From Oxalobacteraceae bacterium OTU3CINTB1 (GTDB lineage: Bacteria; Pseudomonadota; Gammaproteobacteria; Burkholderiales; Burkholderiaceae_D), in assembly GCA_024123955.1 (NCBI GenBank), contig CP099652.1:5642001-5706000 (forward strand): DNA of 64,000 nt, in the 5' to 3' direction. This document shows positions 23,713 through 40,392 of this stretch, piece by piece. Each line of letters opens with the position of its first letter. Position 1 is the stretch's first letter. A model generated the notes under the pieces. It was not told where the DNA came from, searched no databases, and worked only from the letters and a program-made list of their open reading frames with translations. Both the position numbers and the translations under genes were made by a program.

Positions 23713-25569
23713 ATGGAGGTACTTCTCGCGCAGCGACAAATGTTTTCCCCGCCAAAATCCGTCTGGTGGGCGGGGGTCATGCTGTCCCTGGGCGTGGGCG
23801 CGCTGTGCTATGTTGCCGCCTATAAAATGGTCGAATACGACGCCGGCGAGCGCTTCATGCACCAGGCGCGCAACGCCCAGTACCACATCAGCTCGCGCAT
23901 CGACACCTATGCCGACGTGCTGCGCGCCACGGCCAGCTACTTCGACGCCAGCGGCAAGGTCGAGCGCGAAGACTTCCACCGCTTCGTGCGCGGACTGAAA
24001 CTGGCGACCCAGTTTCCCGCGCTGGTCAGCATCAATTACGCGGAGTACATCACCGAAGCGCAGCGCGGGGATTTCGAAAAGGTCGCGCGCCGCAGCGGCG
24101 ACGGCACCGCCAACGGCTATCCCGACTACGTGATCCAGCCGACCGGCCGCCGCGCCGACTATTCCGTCATCACCATGATCGAGCCGATCGCGGCGTTCCG
24201 CTGGCGGGTCGGTCTCGATATCACGCACAAGCCGGCGGTGGCGCAGGCGCTGGCCAACGCGCGCGACACCGGCGAAATCAGCACCTCCGGCAAGCAGATC
24301 GACATGGACAGCTTCGGCCAGGGCGGCGGCATGGCGATCCGGCTGCCGCTGTACAACAAGGATATGCCGCTGACCACCACCCAGGAGCGCCGCGCCGCCT
24401 ACCGGGGTTCGGTCGGGATAGGCTTCAGCGTACCGCGCCTGGTGCAACTGGCGATGGACCAGATGCAAGTGCGCGACGTGCGCCTGCGCCTGTACGACGG
24501 CGGCGAAAGCAACGACCGCTCCTCGGCCGCGTCGGCCCCCTCCCTGTTGTTCGACAACAAGGTCAACGGCGGCGAGAACGTGCGCTCGGCCGACCAGTTC
24601 GGCATCGTGCTGCCGCTGACGTTCAACGGCCGCCAGTGGCATGCCCACTTCAGCGCGCCCAAGGCGGCCTGGTCCAGCCGCTTCGACCTGTTCCTGCCGT
24701 GGCTGGCCATGTTGAGCGGTTTTATCGGCTCGCTGCTGTTCTACCTGCTGATCCACACGCTGTCGTCGTCGCGCATGCGGGCGATCAAGATGGCTAAGGT
24801 CATGACCAAGGAATTGCGCGACAGCCAGGCCAAGCTGCAACAGTCGCACCATAAGCTGCGCCGGCTGGCCGCGCACGCGGACCAGATCAAGGAGCAGGAG
24901 CGCAAGCGCATCGCGCGCGAAATCCATGACGACCTCGGCCAGAACCTGCTGGTGCTGCGCATCGAGGCGGACATGCTGGCCACCCGTACCCGCCACCGCC
25001 ATCCGCGCCTGCACGCCCGCGCGAAAAGTACGCTCAGCCAGATCGACAGCACCATCAAAAGCGTGCGCCATATCATCAACGACCTGCGGCCGAACGTGCT
25101 GGACCTGGGCCTGAACGCGGCCGTCGAATGGCAGATCGCCCAGTTCCGCCAGCGCTCCGGCATGGTGTGCGAGCTGATCGAGCACCAGCGCGACATCCGC
25201 ATCGACGACCATTGCGCCACCGCCTTCTTCCGCGTGCTGCAGGAATCGCTGAGCAATATCGTCCAGCACGCGCACGCCAGCCTGGTCCGGGTGGAATTGC
25301 GGCAGGCCGGCGGCATGCTGAGCATGACCATCACCGACAATGGCGTCGGCATGCGGGCGAGCAATCGCAACAAGGTCGGATCGTTCGGCCTGGTCGGCAT
25401 CGAGGAGCGCATCAGCCTGCTCGGAGGCGTGTGCTCCATCATCGGCAGTCCCAACGCCGGCACCACGGTCGCCATCTCGGTGCCGATCGACCACGTCCCA
25501 CCGCCTTCCAACGACGATCTGACCGACATCAACGACACCGGCCACTTGACCGCCAACGTCATCGCTTGA
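23713..25569 (+). CDS. CHASE-domain sensor histidine kinase, NarX/DesK class
   Basis: 618 residues. A first membrane helix (about 16-38), a periplasmic CHASE sensor (about 70-310), a second helix (about 327-350), then HisKA_3 with RKRIAREIHDDLGQNLLVLRIEADM; His405 is the phospho-site. The ATPase has RVLQESLSNIVQHAHAS, ITDNGVGM and GSFGLVGIEERISLLGG. CHASE domains bind small extracellular ligands. No response regulator lies next to it, so it is an orphan. ATG 23713 follows GAAAGG. The downstream neighbour is the Cys-repeat protein, with its own promoter region. Confidence 0.9.
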   Translation: MEVLLAQRQMFSPPKSVWWAGVMLSLGVGALCYVAAYKMVEYDAGERFMHQARNAQYHISSRIDTYADVLRATASYFDASGKVEREDFHRFVRGLKLATQFPALVSINYAEYITEAQRGDFEKVARRSGDGTANGYPDYVIQPTGRRADYSVITMIEPIAAFRWRVGLDITHKPAVAQALANARDTGEISTSGKQIDMDSFGQGGGMAIRLPLYNKDMPLTTTQERRAAYRGSVGIGFSVPRLVQLAMDQMQVRDVRLRLYDGGESNDRSSAASAPSLLFDNKVNGGENVRSADQFGIVLPLTFNGRQWHAHFSAPKAAWSSRFDLFLPWLAMLSGFIGSLLFYLLIHTLSSSRMRAIKMAKVMTKELRDSQAKLQQSHHKLRRLAAHADQIKEQERKRIAREIHDDLGQNLLVLRIEADMLATRTRHRHPRLHARAKSTLSQIDSTIKSVRHIINDLRPNVLDLGLNAAVEWQIAQFRQRSGMVCELIEHQRDIRIDDHCATAFFRVLQESLSNIVQHAHASLVRVELRQAGGMLSMTITDNGVGMRASNRNKVGSFGLVGIEERISLLGGVCSIIGSPNAGTTVAISVPIDHVPPPSNDDLTDINDTGHLTANVIA

Positions 25570-25636: not shown

Positions 25637-25650
25637 TTGATAAATATCAA
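25637..25650 (+). promoter_or_regulatory. FNR/Anr box upstream of Cys-repeat gene
   Basis: TTGATAAATATCAA matches the consensus TTGAT-N4-ATCAA at all ten defined positions. FNR-type activators bind it under low oxygen. If it sits at -41.5, transcription would start near 25685, and AAAAAT at 25673-25678 is at the -10 position (4 of 6). The gene starts at 25730. Confidence 0.65.
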
Positions 25651-25729
25651 ACGTGAAGAGCCAAAGTTAAGCAAAAATCAATTGCTTCGTAACGTTTTTT
25701 TAACCCGTATCAATCAAGAGGAGATGTCC

Positions 25730-26581
25730 ATGAACGTCATCAACGCCCTGGATCTGGACCCAATCAAGGTCAAGCTGATGCATAAAGAATCCGGCGAAGG
25801 TTGGTCGCTGGAACATGTTAACGCTATCGAGCTGGAATACCGCCGCTTCCTGACGCTGATGAAAAAATACCCCCACGAACAGACCGCGCCGCTGGTCGAC
25901 GTGGACACGTTCTGGCACTACCATATTCTCGATACGATGAAATACGCCGCCGATTGCGAGGCCGTGTTCGGCTACTTCCTGCACCATTTCCCGTATGTCG
26001 GCATGCGCGGTGAGGAAGACGAAGCGGCGCTGGCGCGCATCGGGCAGCGCATGAAGGAATTGTACGAAGCGGAATTCGGCGAGGACTATGTGCGTCCGGC
26101 AAAGCGTGCTTTCGAAGGCGCGACCCAAGCCAATGCCTTCTGCGGTTCGCCCGAAATGCAGGCCAACGCATTCTGCGGCTCGCCCGAGAAGCAGGCCAAC
26201 GCCTTCTGCGGCTCGCCCGAAAAGCAAGCCAACGCCTTCTGCGGCTCGCCAGAAAAGCACGCCAACGCCTTCTGCGGCTCGCCAGAAAAGCAAGCAAATG
26301 CCTTCTGTGGCTCGCCTGAAATACACGCCAACGCTTTCTGCGGCTCGCCGGAAAAGCAGGCGAACGCCTTCTGCGGTTCCCCAGAGAAGCAAGCCAACGC
26401 ATTTTGCGGCAGCCCGGAGAAGCAAGCCAACGCCTTCTGCGGCTCCCCAGAGAAACAAGCGAACGCGTTTTGCGGCTCTCCTGAAGAGAAAGTCGCTTTT
26501 TGCGGCAGCCCGGAAAAGGCAATAGCCGCCAAGGTCCCGAACCAGCCTGGCCTGTTCAGCGGCCGTCCGACCCTGAGCTAA
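25730..26581 (+). CDS. Cys-repeat protein with (Q/H)ANAFCGSPE repeats
   Basis: 283 residues. Residues 1-130 form a compact domain: LMHKESGEGWSLEHVNAIELEYRRFLTLMKKYP and VDTFWHYHILDTMKYAADCEAVFGYFLHHFP, which resembles the GRDP-like (formerly DUF1399) WHxH region (Trp62, His63, His65). Residues 133-253 are eleven tandem 11-residue repeats, QANAFCGSPEK with small changes, plus a twelfth degenerate KVAFCGSPEK, each with one Cys. Codons differ between copies while the protein is kept. GAGGAG sits 6 bases before ATG 25730; no secretion signal. Function unknown: metal or thiol chemistry, or a modified multi-core peptide, is possible. Confidence 0.85.
   Translation: MNVINALDLDPIKVKLMHKESGEGWSLEHVNAIELEYRRFLTLMKKYPHEQTAPLVDVDTFWHYHILDTMKYAADCEAVFGYFLHHFPYVGMRGEEDEAALARIGQRMKELYEAEFGEDYVRPAKRAFEGATQANAFCGSPEMQANAFCGSPEKQANAFCGSPEKQANAFCGSPEKHANAFCGSPEKQANAFCGSPEIHANAFCGSPEKQANAFCGSPEKQANAFCGSPEKQANAFCGSPEKQANAFCGSPEEKVAFCGSPEKAIAAKVPNQPGLFSGRPTLS
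26126..26518 (+). repeat. Tandem 33-bp coding repeats
   Basis: Twelve contiguous 33-base units (the last degenerate, 30 bases) inside the Cys-repeat gene. The units vary mostly at third positions, e.g. TGCGGCTCG, TGTGGCTCG, TGCGGCAGC. They have no spacers, so this is not a CRISPR array. Confidence 0.95.
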
Positions 26582-26772: not shown

Positions 26773-26967
26773 ATGGCCATCAATTCAGTCGCCTCAAACA
26801 GCGCCGCAGTCCAATCAACGCCGCCACCGCGCCAGGCGGAGCCGGTCCAGGCCGCGCCCAAGCCTGCCGAGCAAGCGGCGCCACCGCCGCCTCAGCAGGC
26901 AGCAACCGCGCCCACCGTCAACAGCAACGGCCAGCGCATCGGCACGACGATCAGTACGTCAGCGTAA
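26773..26967 (+). CDS. Small Pro/Ala/Gln-rich protein
   Basis: 64 residues: MAINSVASNSAAVQSTPPPRQAEPVQAAPKPAEQAAPPPPQQ, then TVNSNGQRIGTTISTSA. Low complexity and probably disordered, with no signal peptide or membrane segment. GGGAG lies 8 bases before the ATG and a strong terminator follows, which supports expression. Similar N-termini (MA-SV-S--) occur in the DUF5610 protein of this window, but the similarity is too short to mean much. Function unknown. Confidence 0.55.
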   Translation: MAINSVASNSAAVQSTPPPRQAEPVQAAPKPAEQAAPPPPQQAATAPTVNSNGQRIGTTISTSA

Positions 26968-39717: not shown

Positions 39718-39762
39718 ATTATTGTCTGCGGGTAGCATGTTTCAATTGATGTACATCAATTG
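39718..39762 (-). promoter_or_regulatory. FNR/Anr-dependent promoter (box 39746-39759)
   Basis: TTGATGTACATCAA at 39746-39759 matches TTGAT-N4-ATCAA perfectly and is the core of a perfect 20-base palindrome at 39743-39762. On the minus strand AATAAT (39723-39718) matches TATAAT at 5 of 6, and its implied start near 39711 places the box at -41.5, the class II FNR geometry. It may also act on the rightward lipoprotein gene at 39850. Confidence 0.75.
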
Positions 39763-39849: not shown

Positions 39850-40392
39850 ATGTACATCACTAAGCAAAATAAATGGGTTGCAGTTTTATGCATGGCGGCG
39901 GTGGCCGGGTGCGCTTCGGACGGGACGTCCGACAGTTCGTCGAGTGCCAACACTGGCTATACGGCGCCGGGCACCACGGCAGCGTCCAGCACTGCCGGAA
40001 CCAGCAGTCCAAGCAGTACCGGAACCGGGGAAACCGGCAGCAGCACCGCGGGAACCGGGACCGGCAGCATGGGGAGCACAGGCAGCACGGGGGCGATGGG
40101 CAGCGCCGGCACGACGGGCGGCATCGCGAGTGCCGGAGACACCAGCTCCGCGCAAACCTCGTATGGAACAGTGCAATCCATTGACCAGATGCAGCGTCAG
40201 GATGTTGGCGCTGGCGCAGTGGGCGCCGCGGCGGCAGGTGGCGCCATGGGCGGTTCGCCAACCGACCGCGTATACCGCGTCACCGTAAAGATGGACGACG
40301 GCAGCAGCCAACTGGTGGTGGTCGACTCCATGCCTGGCTACAAAATAGGTGACCGGGTCCGCTACAACAACGGCACCCTCACGCCGTATTAA
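39850..40392 (+). CDS. Low-complexity outer-membrane-type lipoprotein
   Basis: 180 residues. A signal peptide with lipobox AVAGC (Cys21; Ala at +2 favours the outer membrane). Residues about 22-100 are Ser/Thr/Gly repeats. The C-terminal half has GAGAVGAAAAGGAMGG, a glycine-zipper-like segment, and VYRVTVKMDDGSSQLVVVDSMPGYKIGDRVRYNNGTLTPY, as in SlyB/YcfJ-type lipoproteins. GGGAGG lies 6 bases before the ATG. It faces the FNR/Anr palindrome from the right. Confidence 0.82.
   Translation: MYITKQNKWVAVLCMAAVAGCASDGTSDSSSSANTGYTAPGTTAASSTAGTSSPSSTGTGETGSSTAGTGTGSMGSTGSTGAMGSAGTTGGIASAGDTSSAQTSYGTVQSIDQMQRQDVGAGAVGAAAAGGAMGGSPTDRVYRVTVKMDDGSSQLVVVDSMPGYKIGDRVRYNNGTLTPY

Follow-up and report, generated by a model that had tools for sequence, protein, structure and literature searches.

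A candidate Fnr-regulated carrier protein of Oxalobacteraceae: a GRDP-like domain followed by an array of short Cys or Ser cores

In a 64,000-nucleotide stretch of Oxalobacteraceae bacterium OTU3CINTB1 (contig CP099652.1, positions 5,642,001 to 5,706,000 of the forward strand; hereafter the window), we describe a gene for a protein with an N-terminal GRDP-like domain and a tail bearing a dozen copies of the short core A-F-C-G. The protein merits attention for the conjunction of a strongly selected array, a nearly all-Cys or all-Ser choice in each protein, an Fnr-type promoter shared with relatives and a sensor-kinase gene that is regularly nearby, on a domain whose family has thousands of database members and for which we found no bacterial function in print. 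The cores recur at variable spacing, and genes for oxidising enzymes stand beside related tails in other lineages. Our preferred reading, to which we assign a probability of roughly 0.38, is that of an Fnr-induced carrier whose cores would be read and modified in trans; of the alternatives, a non-covalent multivalent scaffold ranks next. No description of the repeat was found in the open-licence PMC papers searched.

The repeat array and the exchange of Cys for Ser

As read from the translation, the first repeat unit begins at Q133, and eleven units of the form [QH]ANAFCGSPE[KMIE], each of 11 residues (Q opens nine of them and H two), tile the array without gaps, followed by a twelfth, KVAFCGSPEK, that is one residue short; the tail holds 12 Cys in all. 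Tandem Repeats Finder (TRF) reports a 33-bp period with 11.1 copies. A sequence-only reading of this DNA had described the same layout, with an N-terminal domain (put at 130 residues, 132 by our count), eleven exact units, a degenerate one and a single Cys in each, and had proposed that the units differ mainly at silent positions and that the pattern is under selection. The layout is confirmed from the sequence, and a count of differences bears out the proposal: between the eleven equal units the mean proportion of synonymous differences (pS) is 0.71 and that of non-synonymous differences (pN) 0.04, an imbalance that counts in favour of cores read as such by a partner. AFCGSPE is kept in all twelve units.

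The extent of this conservation was followed in a motif census of 292 parsed relatives, a set that is not dereplicated and leans towards the window query, in which 247 proteins have at least three motifs. Among these 247 repeat proteins, 136 carry Cys only, 106 Ser only and five Cys together with a single Ser match, the latter being spurious in at least two cases (L140 and P0151; loci are given L numbers). Hence either residue is used alone in 242 of the 247, though the species differ, and 105 of the 106 Ser-only proteins have a tail without any Cys. The Ser genes retain the array, the Fnr box and the CHASE neighbour. Dereplication, in which 280 of the 292 rows passed the filters and 138 were left, gave 70 Cys and 35 Ser rows, and on a quick tree of low resolution, in which 63 of the 135 inner branches are open, the exchange takes two changes, or four with outgroups as a third state. 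Cys looks ancestral, because all six repeat loci outside the Telluria/Janthinobacterium group carry it.

The residue before the Cys or Ser is F, Y, W, H or M, practically of one kind per protein in 222 of the 247, and G or A follows in most cases; two core types are mixed in some Janthinobacterium proteins. The proteins contain 3-19 motifs, and the commonest start-to-start spacings listed run from 6 to 21 residues. As far as sequence comparison can tell, the feature that is kept is a variably spaced core, A-[F/Y/W/H/M]-[C/S]-[G/A]. The variable spacing argues for linear cores rather than a fold, and the uniformity within each protein, both in aromatic kind and in the use of Cys or Ser, fits a specific partner that reads the cores, although turnover of units likewise evens out an array. 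Selection on the core is not confined to the window protein, since pS exceeds pN in 62 of 62 proteins with DNA (10 Cys, 52 Ser), and pN is 0 in 45 of them, although pN is biased downwards here because the motifs were picked by pattern and neither Ala losses nor fourth residues outside G/A/S/T were counted.

The gene most likely starts at the ATG listed in Table 1 and not at the TTG at position 25637, with which the Fnr box opens; a further ATG in frame, at 25724, could also serve but overlies the AGGAG of the gene. The N-terminus, MNVINALDLDPIKVKLMHKE, does not look like a Sec signal peptide, as judged by eye with no predictor. In the predicted structure, residues 1-120 are helical, with predicted local distance difference test (pLDDT) scores of 82-98 in 10-residue blocks, and the array is drawn with short strands, where pLDDT is about 65 or lower. 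On the minus strand, an open reading frame (ORF) of 148 residues (window 26086-26532) spans the array and is probably a by-product of the 33-base unit.

Table 1. Features of the repeat gene and its surroundings, in window coordinates.
Feature	Position	Strand	Remarks
CHASE-domain sensor histidine kinase, probable functional neighbour	23713..25569	+	CHASE (1.8e-34), HisKA_3, HATPase_c (Pfam)
Putative Fnr/Anr box, TTGATAAATATCAA	25637..25650	+	0 mismatches; box end 79 bases before ATG
-10-like hexamer, AAAAAT	25673..25678	+	32 bases centre to centre from box, class II spacing
Repeat protein gene	25730..26581	+	283 aa; ATG start preceded by AGGAG; close relatives L013-L015 start at matching ATG
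N-terminal GRDP-like domain, residues 1-132	25730..26125	+	WHYH and HH motifs
Repeat array, 11 exact units plus a shorter twelfth	26126..26518	+	core A-F-C-G
C-terminal segment with RPTLS	26519..26578	+	many relatives end similarly, in RP[RTS]L (from alignments and translations, no count made)

The Fnr-type promoter and the kinase neighbourhood

Fnr recognizes the motif TTGAT-N4-ATCAA, and at class II activated promoters the -10 element obeys a spacing rule relative to the site. A single box is weak evidence, as the window holds three sites with at most one mismatch versus 0.86 expected by chance, and the proper test is whether the box is conserved. Within 250 bases, a box with no more than one mismatch accompanies 32 of 39 repeat genes (a set that contains the gene of the window) and a perfect box 21 of 39, compared to means of 0.1 and 0, respectively, in mononucleotide shuffles; when only the first copy per locus is considered, 28 of 30 carry the box with at most one mismatch. 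In 26 of the 32 box-bearing genes a hexamer with 4 of 6 matches to the -10 element (e.g. AAAAAT, CAAAAT or AAGAAT) stands 35-36 bases from the box start, and the bases between box and hexamer vary across genes. These observations support a conserved Fnr-type promoter with a class II layout as predicted for the repeat gene. The perfect box and the weak -10 hexamer at the right distance had been noticed in the window alone, and with both now found in relatives the case for a putative Fnr promoter is stronger than that reading could know. Genome-wide, the perfect site occurs 26 times and the reversed control pattern not at all. Five of the 15 sites inspected fall inside a listed ORF, so not every site is a promoter, and one precedes a gene that by eye resembles a cbb3-type oxidase gene. 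A second perfect Fnr box in the window, at 39746-39759, lies 90 bases before a lipoprotein-like ORF (39850-40392).

The kinase gene upstream is a steady companion too. In 34 Telluria-group loci, glnS and the CHASE histidine kinase gene are found upstream in all 34 and a small helix-turn-helix gene downstream in 33. With four tblastn queries, 75 of 78 repeat-class loci showed a CHASE match no more than 4 kb away, 71 of these matches lying upstream on the same strand, three upstream and divergent and one downstream; eight of the loci are duplicates, and 67 of 70 distinct contigs have the neighbour. As for the three misses, one (L169) has a kinase that by eye is frame-broken, in another (L146) the contig is cut near the gene, and in the third (L140) a PAS-GGDEF-EAL protein is encoded on the other side of the repeat gene. 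No CHASE match was found near 42 loci of other classes, which is a soft control, as these lie in other phyla, several have short flanks and L076 repeats L097. With seven CHASE matches in the 6.87 Mb of the genome, we estimate chance adjacency at less than 1 percent per gene. Only the three arrangements count as independent evidence, and as such the neighbourhood speaks for a functional tie between kinase and repeat protein.

Other neighbours deserve brief mention. In L141 and L144 the repeat gene lies between the CHASE kinase and a sensor that by eye is DctB-like, with a gene for a TRAP-type binding protein further off. Downstream of the repeat gene in the window (26773-26967), a 64-residue protein ends in GQRIGTTISTSA, like small YjfB_motility proteins such as that at L217:7369-7569 (PF14070); a Pfam scan of the 64-residue protein gave no match.

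Modification in trans and its alternatives

We propose that Fnr would induce a cytosolic carrier protein of repeated short cores, in which the GRDP-like domain would act as a recognition or carrier module and the tail would present its dozen cores to a partner acting in trans. Most likely the Cys (Ser in the sister clade) or the aromatic residue before it would be covalently modified, as in multi-core peptide precursors, and the pathway would be tied to the adjacent CHASE kinase, which may sense or control the outcome.

Part of the argument for modification comes from the wider family. Scanning named genomes turned up 215 relatives, the best 80 loci of which were kept. In 22 of these 80 (L097-L118) the tail reads DCWHDC..RCWHAC or a near variant, and 22 of 22 have a linked gene for a TauD-type dioxygenase, fused in four, adjacent in 17 and about 1.2 kb downstream in one. 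These loci are titled Bacteroidota, Leptospirales, Gammaproteobacteria, Myxococcales, Opitutae and others. The aligned dioxygenase rows retain H[TS]DH and the distal His, and Pfam recognized TauD in the three linked genes scanned. Upstream of the dioxygenase/DCWHDC pairs, a LytTR-type regulator gene is present in seven loci and a LytS-type kinase gene in six (by Pfam in L106 only). L185, with the tail CAATRCR, also has a TauD neighbour, and L194 is a TIGR04222 protein (3.2e-35) with a related N-terminal domain, then a membrane part and a GGCGG tail; in PMC12452194, subsets of TIGR04222 proteins are proposed as MNIO substrates. A short tail with Cys behind a GRDP-like domain is thus a recurrent arrangement, which in some lineages stands next to an oxidising enzyme, and the 22 DCWHDC loci, L185 and L194 all count towards modification of the window tail. 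A second tail class has CP.CG, then mostly RP[RTS]L or similar, and is found in Betaproteobacteria, a Helicobacter, a Neisseria and others. In L104 and L108 a radical SAM protein (PF04055 in L108), viperin-like by eye, is encoded near the dioxygenase/GRDP pair.

A number of findings weigh against modification in trans. No maturation enzyme, protease or exporter was recognized among the conserved neighbours of the Telluria-group loci, nor any modifying enzyme in the six other betaproteobacterial repeat loci inspected; the same-locus enzyme expected of a ribosomally synthesized and post-translationally modified peptide (RiPP) was thus not recognized in the repeat clade. The DCWHDC-class dioxygenase is absent from this clade, with only weak matches in 3 of 26 genomes, and a search of the window's own genome for SPASM radical SAM proteins gave none. 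MNIO genes occur in 25 of 25 genomes of the genus yet are remote, about 64 kb from the repeat gene in the window's genome and often some 45-100 kb away on the same contig in the genus; none lies beside the repeat gene at the locus, where a bufferin-type substrate would have it, and in four of seven listed stretches a DUF2282-like bufferin gene accompanies the MNIO gene (Pfam-confirmed in one). YcaO is common as well, in 117 of 145 family genomes. Occurrence of the domain in 37 of 37 same-genus genomes looks more like housekeeping than like a patchy natural product, and no constant protease site is visible by eye in the spacers. Finally, 71 of the 75 CHASE neighbours share one arrangement and reflect mostly inherited synteny. 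As a separate observation, an MNIO-DUF2063 fusion adjoins a DUF2282 bufferin gene at L217:5226-7179.

YcaO enzymes act on both Cys and Ser and would therefore suit the exchange between them. In the window's genome there are two YcaO genes, both far from the repeat gene and not beside it as next to a precursor, and one (L226:4830-7085) encodes an OsmC-YcaO-YcaO_C fusion of 751 residues near genes that by eye resemble arsenic-resistance genes. Of the 40 family genomes whose domain match reaches 1e-30 or better, 39 have YcaO, versus 78 of the 105 others (Fisher 0.0008, with kinship ignored and the tails of the 40 unchecked). We regard YcaO as a lead only. Taken further, the proposal would become an oxygen-linked peptide system in which Fnr induces a multi-core protein, its cores, whether Cys or Ser, undergo conversion in trans (a YcaO from another part of the genome could, for instance, form azolines, with a chemistry that accepts either residue), and the CHASE kinase senses the product, lineage-specific cores serving as private signals; in this full form we consider it rather unlikely.

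The multivalent scaffold is a tentative but serious contender. Here the aromatic cores would serve as stickers or docking sites, binding one another or a partner non-covalently, so that the protein would cluster under low oxygen. This reading draws on the low-complexity tail behind a GRDP-like domain, a layout of plant GRDP proteins, on aromatic residues set at variable intervals in varying number (3-19 motifs) and on the fact that no enzyme was recognized beside the repeat gene. Plain stickers would, however, tolerate more change than the window array with its twelve AFCGSPE segments displays, and keeping to a single aromatic kind within a protein goes beyond what stickiness would require. 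A structural repeat, i.e. a beta-solenoid or cross-beta fibre in which the 11-residue units would stack, is improbable despite the short strands of the predicted model, since a fold of that kind does not go with common spacings of 6 to 21 residues.

The sequence-only reading had proposed a thiol array for metal storage or redox buffering, or else a multi-core precursor of a modified peptide, and had taken Cys-free homologues as the result that would tell against it. The multi-core precursor may still apply, but no maturation gene was recognized next to the gene in this clade. Twelve regularly spaced Cys, a conserved Fnr-type promoter and the apparent ancestry of Cys suit storage or buffering, yet the Ser-only proteins, 106 of 247, have kept array, promoter and neighbour, so that Cys is not conserved across the family as in metallothionein-like or thiol-storage proteins; single Cys some 10 residues apart would also make a poor metal site. 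We find this function distinctly improbable and consider the tail to be probably read by a partner and not a store of reactive sulfur. That the tail has little function and was merely homogenized by unequal crossing-over is very improbable, for although motif number differs (12 vs 15) in near-identical relatives with 98 percent domain identity and one relative has a pS of only 0.16, the units combine high silent divergence with almost no replacement.

The domain family and comparison with known systems

The N-terminal domain belongs to a widespread group. The protein search gave 2966 relatives, 120 of them listed, and PF27765 is the precomputed match of these 120; it was not among the matches of the window protein in a local Pfam scan, perhaps for want of the model in the local copy. 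That scan gave PF07173 at 22.5 bits, just under the cut-off of 22.7. Of six relatives scanned, L121, L122 and L128 are above this cut-off and L101, L129 and L140 below, and it is also passed by L182 and L184. The window protein had no NCBIfam match, TIGR04222 included. W62, H63, H65, I66, L67, D68, T69, D75, H85 and H86 all fall in columns that do not vary across a chosen set of 46 sequences. Ten of the 37 same-genus genomes have two strong copies close together; domain matches occur in 45 of 145 genomes of the family (reaching 1e-30 or better in 40) and, in wider samples, in 22 of 274 genomes of the class and 29 of 398 of the phylum.

Compared with GRDP-like proteins (PF07173), the window protein has in common the motifs WHxHIL.T and HH.P and the order of domain and low-complexity tail, as in plants; it differs in its sub-threshold Pfam score, and no such motif array was found in the excerpts of the plant literature. 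Multi-core peptide precursors, such as those of the ustiloxin type and of cyanobactins, likewise carry many near-identical short cores behind an N-terminal part. In contrast to them, the window protein has no recognized enzyme cluster, no look of a signal peptide and no constant cleavage site, and its gene is present in every same-genus genome examined.

Bufferins (DUF2282, MNIO-modified) are Cys-containing precursors that occur in the same genus too, but PMC12452194 describes for them a signal peptide and an MNIO operon, and the window protein has neither (the signal peptide judged by eye). The TIGR04222 membrane proteins are comparable in that L194 joins a related N-terminal domain to a Cys-bearing low-complexity tail; unlike them, the window protein has no TIGR04222 match and no adjoining MNIO, and its Cys is replaceable by Ser. 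A further parallel is offered by the TauD-linked DCWHDC/RCWHAC proteins, with a homologous N-terminal domain and a short conserved Cys tail, which are distinguished by a linked enzyme gene in every locus and by a motif pair in place of an array. If the tails are modified, a group of peptide-tailed proteins would open up.
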